Assembly (NCBI GenBank): GCA_008501825.1
Contig: QQUA01000009.1
Coordinates: 1 to 64,000, forward strand
Direction of reading: 5' to 3'
From: Planctomycetota bacterium
GTDB taxonomy: Bacteria > Planctomycetota > UBA1135
DNA: 64,000 bases
In this document: positions 206-46,687 of the stretch, one piece after another
How positions within the stretch are numbered: position 1 is the stretch's first letter
How the letters are laid out: each line of letters begins with the position of its first letter
Notes under the pieces: generated by a model
Told to the model about the DNA's origin: nothing
The model's database searches: none
The model's input: the letters and a program-made list of their open reading frames with translations, nothing else
Made by a program: the position numbers and the translations under genes

Positions 206-445
206 GCATTCGCGCTAGGAATCCTGAAAAAAACCGTGGCGGTTCTCCGAATAAAGAACGTTCACATACAAGGAATCCAATGTGATTTCAGGCCGCATAG
301 CCTGTTTCTTGATAGTTGTTCTCTTTTGGGGAGTGGAACGCCTACGGCAATGAAGTAGGAAGTAAACTCCCACTATGGGATCTAGAAGGGCTTCGGCTGG
401 TACCCGAGCCAATTACTTCTGGACCCTAGGCGCCTTCCTGGAACC
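139..445. other. Gap left of the first cargo gene
   Basis: No convincing gene is seen here. It holds the conserved GACCCGACCTTTCCAC stretch (about 168-183), then unit-1-specific sequence with no recognisable product, and from about 333 the start of the conserved folded element. A 72-codon reading frame from 140 (GTG start) has no recognisable features and was not accepted. In unit 2 the same slot holds a lipoprotein gene. Confidence 0.5.
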
Positions 446-470
446 GTGTTTTCTTTCAGGAAGGCGTCGC
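333..470 (+). ncRNA. Conserved folded element, copy 1 (candidate structured RNA)
   Basis: Four consecutive hairpins can be drawn. The first pairs CCTAC with GTAGG just before AAGTAAACTCC. The second is an outer stem of GGGATCTAGAAG with CTTCTGGACCC. The third is an inner stem of GGCTTCGG with CCGAGCC closing a CTGGTA loop. The last is a 12-bp stem at 429-440 with 457-468. The copy at 38,846-38,982 folds the same way with different bases in the stems, for example AGAAG/CTTCT becoming GGAC/GTCC, which is the mark of selection on structure. The RNA identity and strand are inferred; a DNA hairpin is also possible. It does not match a known class that I recognise. Confidence 0.6.
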
Positions 471-840: not shown

Positions 841-1647
841 ATGAAGGATTCCGAGCACGTTAGAAAGGAAGCCGATAAGTTTTTCGATAACTTCCTTCAA
901 TGGGCAAAAAATGCGCCCCATTTTCGCGGACAGCCAACAGACGCACCCTTACTCCCTAAAATTGGAAGGCTTAAGGGCTCCACCATTATTATGGAGGAAG
1001 CTCTCTTGGAAATATTTACAAATAGGGTGCATCCTTTTCTTTCGGAAACCTACCAAAAACCATCTAATCTTTGGGAATGGCTTGCCCTTGGGCAACACCA
1101 TGGATTGCCGACTCGATTTTTGGATTGGACAGCTAATCCACTAGTCGCCCTATTTTTCGCATGCAACAAGGACCGAAAAAGAGATGGGATCGTAGTGAAA
1201 TTAAATCACGTTTCCCCAGTCGGCTTAAATACCTTAAGAATAAATCAACTCGAAAAGGAATTCCCTAGTGGCCCAATAAGACAAAGTGATGAAAATGCTA
1301 ACTCATTTATTTTTGAGCCTCCTTATTTTTCGAAAAGGATTCCTGCTCAGGCCGGCCAATTAATGTGGTTTTCGAAACCGCAAGCTCCGGCGCAAATCAT
1401 GCCCTGTGACAATGGAACTTCGTCCAATAAACTAATCGTTCCGTGCCACCTGAAAGTGAACATCCAAACTTTACTCTTAGAGCGCTTTATGATTGGATAC
1501 ACCTCTCTGTTTCCTGGCATGGATGGGCTATGCAAAGACTTGGAACTACAAGTTGAGAGCTCCGACGCACGAAGATGGCTGTCTGAATTGCCCGATTATC
1601 TACGAGAAGAGCTTTTAAAAAATTACGTTGAACGCTACGAAGAATAA
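841..1647 (+). CDS. FRG-domain protein (unit 1)
   Basis: This 268-residue protein has the FRG family landmarks: HFRGQP at about residues 28-33, the WEWLALGQHHGLPTRFLD block at about 82-99 followed by NPLVALFFA, and a late SLFPGMDGLCKDLE block. FRG proteins are often found in defence islands and mobile elements; their activity is not settled. No signal peptide or membrane segment is seen, so it is probably cytoplasmic. It is preceded by a conserved leader and faces the membrane protein at 1,726-2,286 tail to tail. The homologue at 39,089-39,826 occupies the same place in unit 2 and shares mainly these blocks. A toxic or defence role is inferred. Confidence 0.8.
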   Translation: MKDSEHVRKEADKFFDNFLQWAKNAPHFRGQPTDAPLLPKIGRLKGSTIIMEEALLEIFTNRVHPFLSETYQKPSNLWEWLALGQHHGLPTRFLDWTANPLVALFFACNKDRKRDGIVVKLNHVSPVGLNTLRINQLEKEFPSGPIRQSDENANSFIFEPPYFSKRIPAQAGQLMWFSKPQAPAQIMPCDNGTSSNKLIVPCHLKVNIQTLLLERFMIGYTSLFPGMDGLCKDLELQVESSDARRWLSELPDYLREELLKNYVERYEE

Positions 1648-2657: not shown

Positions 2658-2813
2658 GAATTAACGCGATGCAAGTTAATGAGGCGGGATGTAGAAAAAA
2701 ATTTCGGGAGCGGGCCATCTCCACCCCACAGGCCCGGGGGCCTGTCGATCGACCCCCCTTCCCCCCGGCTCGAGCCCACAGGCCCGGGGGCCTGTCCACC
2801 TGGTGGGCCATGG

Positions 2814-2839
2814 TTTCCGGTAACACGCATTACCGGAAA
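2814..2839. promoter_or_regulatory. Operator-like inverted repeat TTTCCGGTAA / TTACCGGAAA
   Basis: Two perfect 10-bp arms are separated by six bases. The half-site TTACCGGAAAGCG recurs twice in the control region at 16,031 and 16,104 and in all equivalent places in unit 2 (41,691-41,716, 46,990, 47,063). It is therefore probably bound by the same regulator, most simply the XRE-type protein encoded at 15,725-16,009. Confidence 0.65.
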
Positions 2840-3142
2840 GCGATCGAATCCGCACGCATGAACGACGCCGACGGAGGTGGCGGCGAGGCGGCCTGGCGCT
2901 GGGGTGGAGGCGGACGCGTGGGCTGGGTGGCGCTCCGGCATGCCCTCTCCCTGGCCCTCTGACGGTCCCGCAAGGACTTACGGCGATTGGCTCAGGTTGG
3001 CGAGTGACGCTGCTCTCGGTGGCTCATGGGCTGCCCTGGTGACGGTAGCACTGGGTGGCAGGTAGAGCGGCTCAGAGCCCAGCAGGAAGCGGCAAGGCGG
3101 AAAGGGATGAAGCCTGGTTGGGGAACAGGTAAGAGCTTCAGA

Positions 3143-3157
3143 GATTGGGACCCAATC
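3143..3157. promoter_or_regulatory. Perfect palindrome GATTGGGACCCAATC
   Basis: A 15-base perfect inverted repeat, kept in unit 2 at 42,021-42,035. The core TTGGGACCCAA occurs again in front of the late genes at 35,214-35,224, with a near copy at 35,236-35,246. This pattern fits an operator for a second phage regulator. Confidence 0.5.
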
Positions 3158-3594
3158 ACCCAAGAGCGATTGCAGATATATGCATATGACTGAGCTTTTT
3201 GGCGCATGTAAACAAGGAATAGAGACTCAAACGAAGAGAGGTCCGATACGACCTAAGTAACTGGTTCTATTTTGGTTTACGGAGAAAGAATGAAAAGGAA
3301 TACAAGGAAAGAGGTAAACAGAACGGAGGAAGTCAGCTTACCAAAATGGTAGTGGATGGAGGGGTGGAGGGCAAATTGGTGCCCAATGACAGCCCTCCCA
3401 GACATCCAGAACCTCCAAGGCTCGGTGCTCTCCCCACCATGGGAAGAGGTTTGGCGCTCCTTCGTTGTTCGGCTCCAAATTCAAAAAAACTCTCATATCA
3501 CCTTTTTGATTTTCGTAACCGATGTTGGGTTAGAGGGTTTAAGGTTGAAGGGAAGCTTTTGTCGCCCACTTCCCCCACTCCACCGCATAGCACG

Positions 3595-4551: not shown

Positions 4552-5646
4552 ATGAGCACTGAACAGGAGCCATTGGATCTCACTGGTGCAGTCGATTTGC
4601 TCCGCGAAGGCCGAGAAGGTGTCTCGAAATGGAACGACAATTTACTGCATCTGCTCGCAGACGCTCGGGAGTACCCGGCCCCACTGAGCGGTTTGGTTTT
4701 TGACGGACTTGACCTCTGTGGAGTAAGTTTTGGTGGAATTTCTCTACAAAGAGCATCCTTTATTAGAACAGACCTACGAGGGTCCGATTTCCGCAAAGCA
4801 GAGGTTTTCAAGTCTGAATTCTACGAATGCAAGATGGATAAAGTTGATTTTTCTAATGCAAGTATCGATTACACTTCCTTTCGTGACTCGAGGTTAGCTA
4901 ATTGCGTCTTTAAGGAAACGTTATTACATGTGGTTGATTTTGAAAACTCTGACTTGATCTCGACTCGCTTCCAAAATTGCACATTATCCGGAACAAATTT
5001 CTATCATGCGTTCATGTCCGGAACAATCTTTGATTCGAACCTCAGTGAAGTTCGTGGACTAGACAGAGTTTTTTATAGCGGCCCTTCCTTCGCCAGCCCG
5101 CTCTCATTAGAAACTGTTCGCGAAAAACACCTGAAAGCCTTCCTGAAAGGTTGCGGCTACCCCGACGGTGTATTTGAATATTATCAGTCAAGCCGTGGTG
5201 CTATTCGTTTCTATTCTTGCTTCATTAGCTATAGCCACAACGATAAGGTCTTTGCACAGCAGTTAGAAGACTATCTCCAGGGCAGAGGGATTCGGTGCTG
5301 GCGCGATGAAAAGGACATGAAAATTGGAGAGAGGATTCGGCGTGCTGTAACCGATGCCATTCGGCTTCACGATCATGTAGTTCTTTTGTGCTCAAAGGCC
5401 TCTCTCGACAGTCGATGGGTTCATAGGGAGCTTGCAGCGTTATTTGAGAAGGAGGAGAAGGAAGGAAGGGATGCCTTGATTCCTCTCGACCTAGATAGCT
5501 ATTTGCTTGAATGGGATGGAGAATACGGGCCCGAAATTCGGGAGCGGTTGGCTGGTAGCTTCAAAGGCTGGGAGAAGAACAACGCCTTGATGCGACGCGA
5601 GTTCGAGAAGGTGGCCCGCGCCCTGCAAAGACCAAAGAGTGAGTGA
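4552..5646 (+). CDS. Pentapeptide-repeat protein with C-terminal TIR domain
   Basis: The 364-residue protein has three parts. The N-terminal 40 residues are shared in pattern with the unit-2 protein at 43,300. Pentapeptide repeats of the A(D/N)LxX type run from about 45 to 175 (for example LRGSDFRKAEVF, LSGTNFYHAFMSGTIF). A TIR domain runs from about 220, with CFISYSHNDKVFAQQLEDYL, WRDEKDMKIGERI and SRWVHREL, whose glutamate matches the usual NADase position. Bacterial TIR proteins commonly deplete NAD or make signal molecules in phage defence. The repeat part may sense a ligand or polymerise. It follows the toxin-antitoxin pair by 29 bases, in the same direction. Confidence 0.82.
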   Translation: MSTEQEPLDLTGAVDLLREGREGVSKWNDNLLHLLADAREYPAPLSGLVFDGLDLCGVSFGGISLQRASFIRTDLRGSDFRKAEVFKSEFYECKMDKVDFSNASIDYTSFRDSRLANCVFKETLLHVVDFENSDLISTRFQNCTLSGTNFYHAFMSGTIFDSNLSEVRGLDRVFYSGPSFASPLSLETVREKHLKAFLKGCGYPDGVFEYYQSSRGAIRFYSCFISYSHNDKVFAQQLEDYLQGRGIRCWRDEKDMKIGERIRRAVTDAIRLHDHVVLLCSKASLDSRWVHRELAALFEKEEKEGRDALIPLDLDSYLLEWDGEYGPEIRERLAGSFKGWEKNNALMRREFEKVARALQRPKSE

Positions 5647-36727: not shown

Positions 36728-38434
<1,707 letters not shown>

Positions 38435-38526: not shown

Positions 38527-38829
38527 ATGAGGCGGCTTTTTCCTCTTTTTCTCGTGTTCCTCTTTGTTGCGTGTACCTCGCATGGCACTGAAATCGACTA
38601 CGACGATCTCTCTTGGATCAAGGTCGGTGAAACCACAGAAACCGAATTGGTAGAAAAGTTCGGAAAGCCCGATGGACGCGCCAGGAATTCAGATGGAACT
38701 CAAAACCTTTCCTTTGTCCATGTAAATACAGGCTTCATGGGCTTTGGAGCGGAAATGGAAGGCGTCATTATCACCCTCGATCAAAACGGCAAAGTTCAGA
38801 GATGGACTCATGCCGGCAATGAAGAATGA
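38527..38829 (+). CDS. BamE/SmpA-like lipoprotein (cargo)
   Basis: The 100-residue protein has a lipoprotein signal with the cysteine in LFVACTSHG, then a SmpA/OmlA-type domain: WIKVGETTETELVEKFGKPDGRA and NLSFVHVNTG. Such domains bind outer-membrane proteins or their folding machinery. The start at 38,527 was chosen because the signal peptide begins at once; the longer frame upstream would not be exported. Carried by a prophage, it could change surface exposure or block superinfection (inference). Confidence 0.65.
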   Translation: MRRLFPLFLVFLFVACTSHGTEIDYDDLSWIKVGETTETELVEKFGKPDGRARNSDGTQNLSFVHVNTGFMGFGAEMEGVIITLDQNGKVQRWTHAGNEE

Positions 38830-38845
38830 CGCTTTTCCTTTCCCC

Positions 38846-38982
38846 GGCGATTAACAAGTCGGGGAAGTAAACTCCACATATGGGGCTAGGACGGTCCGGC
38901 TGGTTACCGGGCCATCAGTCCAAAGCCCCTAGGCGTCCCCTTGGGAAACTTTGTTGGACCTTTGGGGGCGCCGCCTTTTTTT
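38846..38982 (+). ncRNA. Conserved folded element, copy 2, ending in a terminator (candidate structured RNA)
   Basis: The plan equals 333-470: first hairpin CCCCGGC with GTCGGGG, then AAGTAAACTCC, an outer stem GGGGCTAGGAC with GTCCAAAGCCCC, an inner stem GGTCCGG with CCGGGCC closing CTGGTTA, and a final stem at 38,932-38,971. Stem bases differ between the copies but pair in each, whereas loops such as CTGGTA and AGTAAACTCC are kept. The last hairpin is followed by seven T, so it can end a transcript made from the left. A small RNA or leader is likely; its target is unknown. Confidence 0.6.
38932..38982 (+). terminator. Intrinsic terminator
   Basis: GGCGTCCCC pairs with GGGGGCGCC and is followed by CGCC and seven T (38,976-38,982). 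It ends transcription from the lipoprotein gene or the folded element before the FRG gene. In unit 1 the same hairpin exists without the T-run. Confidence 0.65.
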
Positions 38983-38984
38983 GT

Positions 38985-39080
38985 GTAGCGCCCGGACCAG
39001 CCGGCCCCTCCCCCAAGGAACCAGCCGCCCGGGCATTAGGGCTGACGGATTGCCACCCGCGAGGTTACAGTTTTTCTTCA
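38985..39080. other. Conserved leader before the FRG gene, copy 2
   Basis: It equals 747-838 apart from a single obvious difference (CCGGGCATTAG against CCGTGCATTAG). Here it follows directly after the terminator, so any promoter of the FRG gene should lie within it. No reading frame explains the conservation. Confidence 0.6.
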
Positions 39081-39088
39081 GGTGAGAA

Positions 39089-39826
39089 ATGAAAAAGGCG
39101 AAAGAACTGTTTCACGAATTTATCCAGTGGTCAGGAGATCTCGGAGGGTGGTTTCGTGGGCAACCATGCGAATGGCCACTAATCCCAGCGATAGGTAGGT
39201 TGCCTGGGTATAGTCCAGTTATCGAAGAAGATTTCCTCCTTCAATTTAAGAACTGCGCTGCGCCTTTTTTATCGGAAAGCTACTTGAGCCCCGCAAATGA
39301 TTGGGAGTGGCTTGCCCTTGCTCAACATCATGGCTTACCTACACGTTTTTTGGATTTGACTTCAAATCCCCTGGTCGCATGTTTCTTTGCCATAAGGAAA
39401 GAGCCCAAAGAAGATGGAGTGGTCTATAACGTTCGTAGGAGTTATGTGCTCTCCCTCGGGAGAATCTATCGGCATCACCTTCTCGGCGAGGCAATTGAAG
39501 CAATCGGCAGTAACCCAATTACTCCGATTTCTTTATCCGAATCAAAGAAAACTCGGATCTTTCAGCCCCCAATGTTTTCAAGGAGAATTGCCGCTCAATC
39601 GTCATATTTGATGTGGACTCACAACCCGAAGGTAAACGTTGAGGAAAGACTTATAGACCGGTTCGTTTTTCCATCGAACCTCAAGAACGGAGTATTGGAA
39701 TTGCTTGACCGAATGGGAATACGGTACTCATCGCTTTTTCCCGGGTTAGATGGCCTTTGCTCCGAAATCGTAATGGGCTTAAATTGGAATGCATTACACA
39801 CCTGGAATAAAGCAATGCCAAAGTGA
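39089..39826 (+). CDS. FRG-domain protein (unit 2)
   Basis: The 245-residue protein has GGWFRGQPCEWPLIPAIGRL at residues 20-39, WEWLALAQHHGLPTRFLD and NPLVACFFAIRK around 72-100, and YSSLFPGLDGLCSEIV near the end. It is the counterpart of the protein at 841-1,647 and differs outside these blocks. The ATG at 39,089 follows AGGTGAGAA, a fair ribosome site. Its place in the same order beside a membrane protein/winged-helix pair supports a conserved module. The activity of the FRG domain is not settled. Confidence 0.8.
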   Translation: MKKAKELFHEFIQWSGDLGGWFRGQPCEWPLIPAIGRLPGYSPVIEEDFLLQFKNCAAPFLSESYLSPANDWEWLALAQHHGLPTRFLDLTSNPLVACFFAIRKEPKEDGVVYNVRRSYVLSLGRIYRHHLLGEAIEAIGSNPITPISLSESKKTRIFQPPMFSRRIAAQSSYLMWTHNPKVNVEERLIDRFVFPSNLKNGVLELLDRMGIRYSSLFPGLDGLCSEIVMGLNWNALHTWNKAMPK

Positions 39827-40560: not shown

Positions 40561-41079
40561 CTACGGCCACCAATGCCTACGCCAAACCTCGGGCAGCAGC
40601 TTCCTAATCGCCTGGCCGGTGCGGTCGCCGGCCATTGCCGCAAAGCACCCGATGAGCACCCAAACGGTTCTGAAGGTGAAAGCGAATCGGAGCCAAAGGC
40701 GTGGCCAGAAGCCCGTGTACTGTTCAAAAGATTCGTAGTAGTCGTCCTTCAGTTCAATCGCTGAAGGCTCCCAGGTCTCCTGCCGAATTTGCTTAGGGAT
40801 TAGATAGGAGATTAAATCAAGGCCACGGGCAATTTTCGAAAAATCGCGCGAATTACTTTTTCCTTCTTCACGAAGCGTTTTCTTCAGAGGTTCTTTTAGA
40901 ATAATTTTGCTATTTAGTACGACTACCTCAATTCGACTCCTTTCGCCTTGAAATTTGAACTCCTGAGATATTTTTTCATTATTGAGACGGATCTCTTCTT
41001 CAATGATAGCATCCAACGATGCTTCATTCTGATTTGCAACTGCCACCGCTCTAATCGAGGAAGAAATTGTCTTTCCCAT
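40561..41079 (-). CDS. Membrane protein of the winged-helix pair (unit 2)
   Basis: The 172-residue protein keeps the last 40 residues of the unit-1 protein: a hydrophobic segment (LWLRFAFTFRTVWVLIGCFAAM) and a tail with GDRTGQAIRKLLPE and WWP. Its soluble part is different apart from a shared IRQETWEP / DDYYESFEQY stretch (REESWED / DDFYESMEKY in unit 1). The strong C-terminal constraint suggests a binding partner or an essential membrane function of the tail. It ends two bases before the winged-helix gene begins. Confidence 0.7.
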   Translation of the reverse strand: MGKTISSSIRAVAVANQNEASLDAIIEEEIRLNNEKISQEFKFQGERSRIEVVVLNSKIILKEPLKKTLREEGKSNSRDFSKIARGLDLISYLIPKQIRQETWEPSAIELKDDYYESFEQYTGFWPRLWLRFAFTFRTVWVLIGCFAAMAGDRTGQAIRKLLPEVWRRHWWP

Positions 41080-42386: not shown

Positions 42387-42911
42387 ATGATTTCGGACCG
42401 ACGATTTGTTGTTGCTCTTTTGGTCGGCGTGTCGACCTTGGCCGGCCTCTCCGTCCTCCAGGCCCAGAAAACGGCCATCAACCCCACCCCGCCGCCGACT
42501 CTTAGGGTGGAGTACATTCCCAACCCGAACGACATCGTGAACCTACGGGAAGGCACGTCTTACACCGTTCCTACCGGAATGATTTTGATCATCACAGATT
42601 GGGCGGTAACTCAGCCCAATTTCCCGGCTCCTCCCCAGAATGCGGAAGCTGAGTCGGATGTCCATGCCAGAGTTTTGATAGACAGCCTGGAGGTGTGGGG
42701 CGGAGGATTTGCCGCCTCCATCATCCACAAAAGTGAGTTGCATGGACTGGAAAACGCTCTGGGCATGGCAAGCTCTGGCGGCGGCCATCTGTCTGGTTCC
42801 CTCAGAAGCGGAATCCGGGCAGAAGCCGGTCAAATCGTGGAGATAGATGCAGTGGCGAGCTACGGTGGCCCAATGATGTATGCCTCCGGCTACTTGTACC
42901 CCGCGCAGTAG
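42387..42911 (+). CDS. Small secreted protein, copy carried in unit 2
   Basis: The 174-residue protein has a signal peptide (SDRRFVVALLVGVSTLAGLSVLQAQ) and a beta-rich body with NPTPPPTLRVEYIPNPNDIV, YTVPTGMILIITDWAV and a glycine-rich SSGGGHLSGSLRSGIRAEAG near the end, finishing in YASGYLYPAQ. It is related to genes at 47,944 and 49,254. No family is recognised. It sits in the cargo slot that holds the Panacea pair in unit 1. The upstream part of the longer frame has no signal peptide, so the ATG at 42,387 was chosen. Confidence 0.75.
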   Translation: MISDRRFVVALLVGVSTLAGLSVLQAQKTAINPTPPPTLRVEYIPNPNDIVNLREGTSYTVPTGMILIITDWAVTQPNFPAPPQNAEAESDVHARVLIDSLEVWGGGFAASIIHKSELHGLENALGMASSGGGHLSGSLRSGIRAEAGQIVEIDAVASYGGPMMYASGYLYPAQ

Positions 42912-43299: not shown

Positions 43300-44466
43300 A
43301 TGCATGTTTCAAAGGAAATGACTCAAGAGGAAGCAATGAGATTGCTTAGCCTTGGGGGAGATGGAATTGAAGTCTTCAATCTCTGGAGGGCCGCACGGCA
43401 AAGGGAGGGAATGGATTGCGATGTTCCACTAAGGGGAGTCTCCCTTAAGGGAATGGACTTGACAAATGCAAGCTTGTTTTCCCTAGACCTAAGTGGAGAA
43501 GATCACTCTGGCGCAACCTTTAACTCTGCTAATCTAAGCGGCGCCTCTCTCGAGGACACAACCCTTCATGGCTGCAACTTCGAGAAATCAAAGCTTGAAA
43601 ACACAAAATTTAACGGCGCAAGCATTCGTAGAGCAATATTTTGGTCTTCTGAGATGGATGGAGCAAAATTACACAACTGTGAGATTCAAAACTGTGAATT
43701 TAACCGAGCCGCAGGAAGAATTTTTTTTGAGGGTGCAAAGGAGATTACGGAGTCTACTTTTTATGGCGCAGGCTTGACTCATTCCACATTTACATCTGTC
43801 AAGCTTTCGGGCTCTGATTTTTCAAATTGCAATTTATCCGATTGCGATTTTCGTGACTCAGATTTAAGGAAAACTTATTCCAACTCCCAAACGAACGTTC
43901 AACGATGTAAATTTGAGGGTTGCAGAGTTGAACGATTTAATGCGGAAAGGCTCGGTATCCATATTCGAGATAGAATTGGAATGAAGATCGAAGATGACTT
44001 AGCCAAACTCCGGCAATCTTACAGTGGGTTTTGGGCTATCTTGCACTTATTCGCTCTAGTCGGCTTTGCTTTGCCATACATCTGGTTCATTGTCAAAAAT
44101 TGGACTTTTGCAGAATTCGGACTCTTCGAGAAAGATGGTGAACCCATATTATTGGCCATTGCGTTTTTCAGATTCATTCTCTTCGGAGAAGATGGATGGG
44201 AAACATGTACTTTCTCATTCCAAAGCTTAGAATTTCTTTGTGGATTTATTGTCATGGTGATTTTCAATTACCTAAGATTCCGGTTATTGAAAAAAACAAA
44301 GACGCTGGAGCTCCAAGAGATAGCCACCGGAGTTCCAGCAAATTTCCGATTCGATGATGGTCCGTGGGGTGATTGGTTTCGAATATCTCAATGGATGGAA
44401 AAGCTTTACTTTGGAATTGTCCTTTATCACATCTTTCTTTTCCTCGCCAAAGAAATCCCTGTTTGA
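43300..44466 (+). CDS. Pentapeptide-repeat protein with membrane domain
   Basis: The 388-residue protein begins with a short helical head (MRLLSLGGDGIEVFNLWRAA), comparable to the TIR protein at 4,552. Pentapeptide repeats follow at about 50-220 (TNASLFSLDLSGEDHSGATF, DFSNCNLSDCDFRDSDL). The C-terminal part has several hydrophobic segments (FWAILHLFALVGFALPYIWFI, ILLAIAFFRFILFG, FLCGFIVMVIFNYLRF, LYFGIVLYHIFLFLA). The repeats may sense or assemble, and the membrane part may form a pore or channel in defence. This is inferred. Confidence 0.75.
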   Translation: MHVSKEMTQEEAMRLLSLGGDGIEVFNLWRAARQREGMDCDVPLRGVSLKGMDLTNASLFSLDLSGEDHSGATFNSANLSGASLEDTTLHGCNFEKSKLENTKFNGASIRRAIFWSSEMDGAKLHNCEIQNCEFNRAAGRIFFEGAKEITESTFYGAGLTHSTFTSVKLSGSDFSNCNLSDCDFRDSDLRKTYSNSQTNVQRCKFEGCRVERFNAERLGIHIRDRIGMKIEDDLAKLRQSYSGFWAILHLFALVGFALPYIWFIVKNWTFAEFGLFEKDGEPILLAIAFFRFILFGEDGWETCTFSFQSLEFLCGFIVMVIFNYLRFRLLKKTKTLELQEIATGVPANFRFDDGPWGDWFRISQWMEKLYFGIVLYHIFLFLAKEIPV

Positions 44467-46011: not shown

Positions 46012-46687
46012 GAGAAACCTCCAAAATTGCGGACGCTACGGGGTGGTGTTGTGAGTAAAGGGCGCAAAGAGCAGCGTCTGAAACGCCCCAGCGGCGATTC
46101 TGTGAGGTCTCCTGTTTGAAGCCCTCAATGAGCGGCATGACCGCTTTTTCGATCTTTGGTTTGGTCCAGCCGTTTGGTTTGCCGAGGATCGCTTTCCTGG
46201 CGCTCACCGCTTTTACGGTGTAGATCGGCACACCAAGAATCGAAGAAAGAGAGCCCGGGATCCCGTGGGCAATTCCGTAGCGGATCGCTCCTTTCTGCCC
46301 GGTCTTCGACAACCCGAAGCAGACGTATTTGGAGATGACTTCCGCCGGCTGGTTGTTTTCCCCCCGGATGATCCGCGGGTTTTCACACTCCCGGCCATCG
46401 ACCACCAGGAAGGGCGCTGGGATGACGGTGCATCCGGCGGTCTGATTCAGAAGGTCCAGGCCCTTGATGTCCAGGGAGTAGACCGACATCCATTTGTCGA
46501 TCACGTTCCCGTTCGCATCCTTGGTCTTCACCGGCTTGGACCCGGTCCAAAAGATGTGACCCTGTTGTTCCCAAAGCTGGACCGTCTTCTTCTGGCCGAC
46601 CGCCCCGTTGGGTGCCAAGGCTCTGTCCTTTCCGAGTACGGCCGGCGCGGCTGCTGCACCCGGCCCTGTTCTTGCGAGCTCATTCAC
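45947..46687 (-). pseudogene. Deletion-made fusion of the recombination-like gene and the RuvC-like gene
   Basis: The 246-residue frame (GTG start, VNELARTGPGAAAAP) takes its first 128 or so residues from the counterpart of 14,610-15,728 and the rest from the RuvC-like protein of 7,731-8,339. The join lies in CTGCCCGG[T/A]CTT (about 46,295-46,306), a short homology present in both parents. Relative to unit 1, 7,257 bp are missing, a multiple of three, so the frame stays open. The catalytic first acid of RuvC is gone, so nuclease activity is unlikely. Confidence 0.85.

Follow-up and report, generated by a model that had tools for sequence, protein, structure and literature searches.

Within the 64,000-nt stretch of planctomycete DNA analysed here (the window), a folded element occurs twice, each time upstream of a gene for an FRG-domain protein, which raises the question of whether the element encodes an RNA and whether such an RNA acts on the gene that follows it. 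Both copies exist as the preliminary description had claimed, with coordinates shifted slightly to 341-468 and 38842-38982. Each copy, when folded alone, adopts the same three-hairpin arrangement of P1, a linker, P2 and P3, comprising the following parts:

341-468, plus strand: RNA copy 1, whole (P1-linker-P2-P3)
341-345/355-359, plus strand: P1 of copy 1, CCTAC/GTAGG, loop of 9 nt
360-370, plus strand: linker of copy 1, AAGTAAACTCC, 11 nt, same as in copy 2
377-426, plus strand: P2 of copy 1, GGG.TCT.GAAG.GGCT.CGG, apical loop CTGGTAC, bulge AATTA on the 3' side
429-468, plus strand: P3 of copy 1, 15 perfect pairs, with no T-run after it
38842-38972, with T7 to 38982, plus strand: RNA copy 2, whole (P1-linker-P2-P3-T7)
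38842-38848/38858-38864, plus strand: P1 of copy 2, CCCCGGC/GTCGGGG, loop of 9 nt
38865-38875, plus strand: linker of copy 2, AAGTAAACTCC, same as in copy 1
38882-38929, plus strand: P2 of copy 2, GGGGCT.GGAC.GGTCCGG, apical loop CTGGTTA, bulge ATCA on the 3' side
38932-38972, plus strand: P3 of copy 2, GC-rich, followed by GCC and T7 at 38976-38982, an intrinsic terminator

P3 lies directly 3' of a TA in both copies. The last stem of copy 2 had been described as a terminator, which its GCC and T7 tail bears out; a terminator thus separates the RNA from FRG in copy 2, whereas copy 1 has none. The genome has two exact occurrences of the linker 11-mer, and neither copy contains tandem or direct repeats. 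Two further pairings were considered and rejected: a conserved pseudoknot of the linker or P1 loop with the P2 loop is unconvincing by eye (four pairs in copy 2, at most three in copy 1), and an upstream GGGAGT-ACTCCC pairing in copy 1 is missing from copy 2. A 14-nt direct repeat of 86% identity flanks copy 1 (TTGTTCTCTTTTGG at 316-329, TTATCCTCTTTTGG at 475-488), and none is found around copy 2.

Several lines of evidence argue well for base pairing under selection in both copies. The MFE z-scores are -4.81 (copy 1) and -4.20 (copy 2), with 0 of 200 shuffles folding as well. A structure-guided alignment, made by hand from two sequences with the fold in view and small bulges left out, comprises 31 pairs, nine of them changed on both sides, four on one side and none broken; under a null in which 22 of the 62 sites are substituted at random, 2.2 pairs on average change on both sides and 14 are broken, and the observed values were reached in 0 of 200,000 runs. 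P1 and P2 account for 22 of these pairs, all standard in both copies and seven changed on both sides, to which P3 adds nine. The exchanges singled out in the preliminary description are all present (CCTAC/GTAGG to CCCCG/CGGGG, GAAG/CTTC to GGAC/GTCC, and T-A to C-G), and its claim of selected base pairing is upheld in both alignments that we compared. Since knowledge of the fold guided the making of this alignment, the fairer measure comes from a sequence-only MAFFT alignment analysed with RNAalifold, which gave 29 predicted pairs with four two-sided changes and none broken, P1 being misaligned. The covariation could in principle be an illusion, arising from a single hand-made alignment of just two sequences whose pairs and gaps were picked to suit the fold. 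We consider this very improbable: the identical hairpin set emerges from separate folding of each copy, the four two-sided changes persist in the sequence-only alignment with nothing broken, and sliding the partners by one to three columns in the structure-guided alignment of P1 and P2 destroys the pairing, which falls to 27-57%.

The plus strand is well supported as the strand of this predicted RNA. It is favoured because of the T-run after copy 2, the better folding (z of -2.7 and -1.5 on the minus strand) and four pairs that are G-U as read here but become A-C mismatches on the minus strand. Conserved words, e.g. GGCTGGT and CCTAGGCG, sit in different frames in copies 1 and 2, and the indels between the copies also differ in frame; no conserved peptide or coding region therefore explains this stretch.

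No Rfam 15 family matched the RNA at its gathering score, and a relaxed E-value returned chance-level matches far below gathering. A covariance model, which scores copies 1 and 2 at 94.4 and 85.1 bits, recovered only these two when run over the order (154 genomes), a sample of the phylum (392 genomes) and, with laxer filters, the family; the next best match across ~500 distinct genomes of order and phylum had an E-value of ~0.04. The check proposed at the outset, a covariance-model scan for more homologues, came back empty beyond copies 1 and 2 in the genomes covered, and the covariation between these stands. The pattern AGTAAACTCC-N-TATGGG identified 23 stretches in IMG/VR, none with a P1 stem and the downstream motifs, and at least 116 stretches in GTDB contigs, with none of this kind among the matches listed. 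Looser IMG/VR patterns, for which 100 of 120 stretches and 10 of a second pattern were scanned with the covariance model, gave only chance matches. Nor did blastn against phages yield a match, or IMG/VR any relatives when approached via the integrase, portal, FRG or PadR-neighbour protein. The RNA is thus real yet so far an orphan, with two known members in neighbouring prophage elements of one genome. Because these have diverged by about a quarter and have kept their fold, further members of the family should exist.

What carries the RNA? Each copy lies at the left end of one of two related elements that are integrated at tRNA-Pro, and the gene order is int, xis, RNA, FRG. The window is the start of contig C12, and another contig, C6, breaks off within a related integrase (76% identical) that follows an intact tRNA-Pro(ggg) at C6:493789-493866. 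The landmarks of the second element are:

36946-36995 in the window, plus strand, and C6:493823-493871: attachment site, 3' half of tRNA-Pro(ggg), preceding the second integrase in the window
37073-38236, plus strand: tyrosine integrase of element 2
38397 leftwards, minus strand: xis-like HTH gene of element 2, 3' of the integrase

Since the C6 integrase lies behind a tRNA-Pro(ggg) whose 3' half recurs at 36946-36995, we infer that window positions 1-36946 and the end of C6 together form one complete prophage of ~38 kb, with its left edge on C6. This prophage encodes a terminase, portal, major head and tape-measure proteins and a DnaB-like helicase. Element 2 extends from 36946 to ~49.8-50 kb, where host genes for arginyl-tRNA synthetase, a sigma factor and RNase PH follow, and comprises the integrase, xis, RNA, FRG, a PadR-like gene, a pentapeptide-repeat gene and a weak match to a terminase small subunit; no virion genes were recognised in it. 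The 8.1-15.3 kb region of prophage 1 is missing from element 2, with a clean junction near 46300, and element 2 is apparently a deletion derivative or satellite-like relative of the 38-kb prophage in which RNA and FRG were retained. A third copy of the tRNA-Pro(ggg) 3' half, 94% identical, stands alone on a further contig (C24:22223-22272), with neither a tRNA nor a related integrase nearby, and is perhaps an old attR.

The genes and blocks that flank the RNA in the two units are as follows:

841-1647, plus strand: FRG gene of prophage 1, PF08867 at 84.1 bits (cut-off 25), PADLOC candidate PDC-S15
39089-39826, plus strand: FRG gene of element 2, PF08867 at 77.1 bits (cut-off 25), PADLOC candidate PDC-S15, 42% identical to the first
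446 or, more likely, 487 (GTG starts) to 748, plus strand: small ORF that separates RNA copy 1 from FRG and encodes a hydrophobic stretch
38530-38829, plus strand: small lipoprotein-like ORF, ending 12 nt before copy 2
745-839 and 38985-39079, plus strand: 95-nt block directly before the FRG genes, 99% identical

In the Pfam scan the downstream proteins matched FRG only, and neither a ToxN-type endoribonuclease nor Abi_2 (PF07751); the small ORF at 446/487-748 has no Pfam or PADLOC match. A published study assigns the FRG domain to the ART superfamily and considers it a possible NADase (PMC9503650). Because an AlphaFold model of FRG from two sequences reached a pLDDT of 32, and no relatives were found in the PDB by sequence, the ART fold is taken from that study alone. 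The claim that the RNA precedes FRG in both units holds as to strand and order, with the qualification that an ORF intervenes behind copy 1. Neither copy is preceded by a promoter that scores above chance. The 95-nt block, which has two copies in the genome and is not unusually structured, may be a promoter or a recombination boundary. When the left ends of the two elements are compared, positions 1-125 are identical and 2695-3374 are 94% identical; between them, 130-2690 (RNA, small ORFs, FRG, PadR) is strongly diverged save for the 95-nt block, with amino acid identities of 42% for FRG and 46% for PadR. A diverged module between near-identical flanks indicates that the RNA sits in an allelic, exchangeable module. 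As read from the sequence, then, the element is a plus-strand structured non-coding RNA of ~130 nt in the left-end accessory module of a temperate phage, and the same reading gives its conserved fold, covariation, strand and place between xis and FRG in both units.

Other features of the elements were also recorded. The word TTACCGGAAAGCG has six exact plus-strand sites (2830, 16031, 16104, 41707, 46990 and 47063), whose positions correspond between the two elements, against an expected count of 0.11 with one mismatch allowed; this putative motif is probably a phage regulatory or binding site. The proteins beside the PadR-like genes (1726-2286 and 40561-41079, minus strand) share a strongly conserved C-terminus, GDRTGQAIRKLLPE-WRR-WWP, and a search across IMG/VR and 392 genomes of the phylum gave no relatives of them. 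TIR effector models match residues 219-334 of the prophage 1 protein at 4552-5646, whose N-terminus belongs to the same PHROGs as the pentapeptide-repeat protein; its element 2 counterpart at 43300-44466 has pentapeptide repeats only, suggesting a possible exchange of effector domains. Three related 300-nt coding stretches, 64-87% identical, lie at 42468, 48040 and 49335 of element 2, and those of their proteins that were scanned have no PHROGs match.

Is the RNA tied to FRG? In the 154 genomes of the order, 15 carry a total of 22 FRG genes; 20 of these genes lack the RNA, including a third FRG gene of this genome. Plasmid FRG homologues can overlap or almost abut the upstream gene (Vibrio), and the stretches upstream of four further FRG genes, carried by plasmids and phage TP901-1, and of the third FRG gene here fold no better than shuffles. 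A structured leader that appeared before FRG at another locus, L290 (z -4), proved to be the coding end of an upstream DnaK-like gene. In general, then, FRG can do without such an RNA, which may be a lineage-specific partner, and the linkage could reflect the shared ancestry of two sister elements.

We nonetheless favour, with a probability of about 40%, the reading that the RNA, as a leader or a small RNA, keeps expression of the prophage's FRG cargo in check. It would make up the 5' portion of one transcription unit with FRG, and transcription would mostly end at or near P3. Small RNA would then build up in the lysogen, and little would be made of FRG, which is suspected to be a NAD-consuming effector of abortive infection; FRG levels would rise upon read-through, or if the RNA were lost during infection. 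The RNA may also bind FRG. Restraint of FRG is supported by the deletion derivative, which kept int, RNA and FRG while losing virion genes; by FRG being a listed candidate defence protein and the nearest conserved same-strand gene to the RNA in both units; and by the layout of RCd22-AbiF, where an RNA and terminator lower read-through into a toxin gene. It is weakened by the ORF and missing T-run of copy 1, the want of a detectable promoter before either copy, a possible FRG promoter inside the 95-nt block, the FRG genes elsewhere that lack the RNA and, where folded, a structured leader, and the RNA's total of two copies.

Alternatively, the RNA could be an independent, trans-acting phage small RNA whose invariant linker AAGUAAACUCC pairs with the ribosome-binding site of some mRNA, with FRG a mere neighbour. 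A hairpin, an open seed, a second hairpin and a terminator are the usual layout of trans-acting small RNAs; the linker carries an anti-Shine-Dalgarno-like CUCC and is the same in both copies though the stems diverge, and the FRG linkage is absent elsewhere. However, the exact complement of the 11-mer occurs nowhere in the genome, the linker pairs with the starts of FRG, the small ORF and the lipoprotein-like gene mostly no better than shuffled linkers do (best 36/1000), and none of 372 ORF starts scanned within the window stands out; we regard this alternative as somewhat unlikely. That the element is a small RNA, as first suggested, is reasonable given the strong terminator that ends copy 2.

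The RNA could also be no more than the structured 3' end and terminator of a small upstream gene, such as the lipoprotein-like ORF of element 2, contributing only to RNA stability. Copy 2 does begin 12 nt past that ORF and end in a terminator, but the upstream ORFs are unrelated between the units while the RNA is related, copy 1 ends without a T-run, and a plain terminator needs no long invariant linker and loop sequences; we regard this as quite improbable. A true RNA antitoxin, conceivable according to the preliminary description, would bind and block the FRG protein as in a type III pair, and both components would have diverged together. Its appeal lies in the co-orientation of the RNA with a candidate toxin gene 3' of it in both units, in the parallel divergence of RNA and FRG between near-identical flanks, and in the precedents of single-RNA systems without classic repeats, RCd22-AbiF (PMC12373285) and AvcID (PMC10511110). 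The layout, which resembles RCd22-AbiF and type III systems, is the part of the proposal that stands; against it are the absence of repeats, an FRG family unlike every known RNA-neutralised toxin, the 20 of 22 FRG genes without the RNA, the overlapping plasmid FRG genes, and the ORF and missing T-run of copy 1. An antitoxin is thus unlikely, and because it has neither repeats nor a known toxin family the RNA is not filed as type III.

If the RNA does restrain the FRG cargo, a link that we find plausible, a suspected NAD-consuming effector would join the nuclease- and deaminase-type effectors of abortive infection whose genes are under RNA control, and there would be a partner of FRG to test. 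To our knowledge, no RNA partner of the FRG-domain family has been described. At long odds, the two copies would represent a new family of phage RNAs that act directly on an FRG (ART-superfamily) effector to neutralise or gate it, and would form with it the first RNA-controlled NAD-directed abortive-infection module, travelling as exchangeable cargo of temperate phages. Otherwise, it is a well-supported orphan structured RNA, with covariation from two neighbouring prophage elements of one genome.

Among known systems, both downstream genes belong with the FRG proteins of PADLOC PDC-S15, other members of which occur in the order and on plasmids without the RNA. In the type III systems ToxIN, CptIN and TenpIN, the RNA gene, terminator and effector gene follow in that order (PMC5086642), and the same co-oriented order is seen here in copy 2 only; unlike these systems, there are no tandem repeats, the effector is not a ToxN-type endoribonuclease, and copy 1 has an intervening ORF and no terminator. 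AvcI demonstrates that a terminator before the effector is not obligatory (PMC10511110): like copy 1, it lies 5' of an anti-phage enzyme, AvcD, with no predicted terminator between, although that effector is a deaminase of an unrelated family and the RNA is longer (at least 171 nt). RCd22, from the phi027 prophage of Clostridioides difficile, lies before abiF, has a terminator at its end and reduces the read-through that reaches the toxin gene (PMC12373285). Its function has been tested experimentally; RCd22 has two repeated abiF motifs, which are lacking here, and its gene is Abi_2/AbiF rather than FRG (ART superfamily). RCd22 starts 168 nt before its gene, and P1 of copy 2 lies ~250 nt before FRG. 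In the order seen in copy 2, both are prophage-borne non-coding RNAs of ~100-130 nt that, with an intrinsic terminator, stand directly 5' of an abortive-infection gene, a suspected one in the case of FRG.
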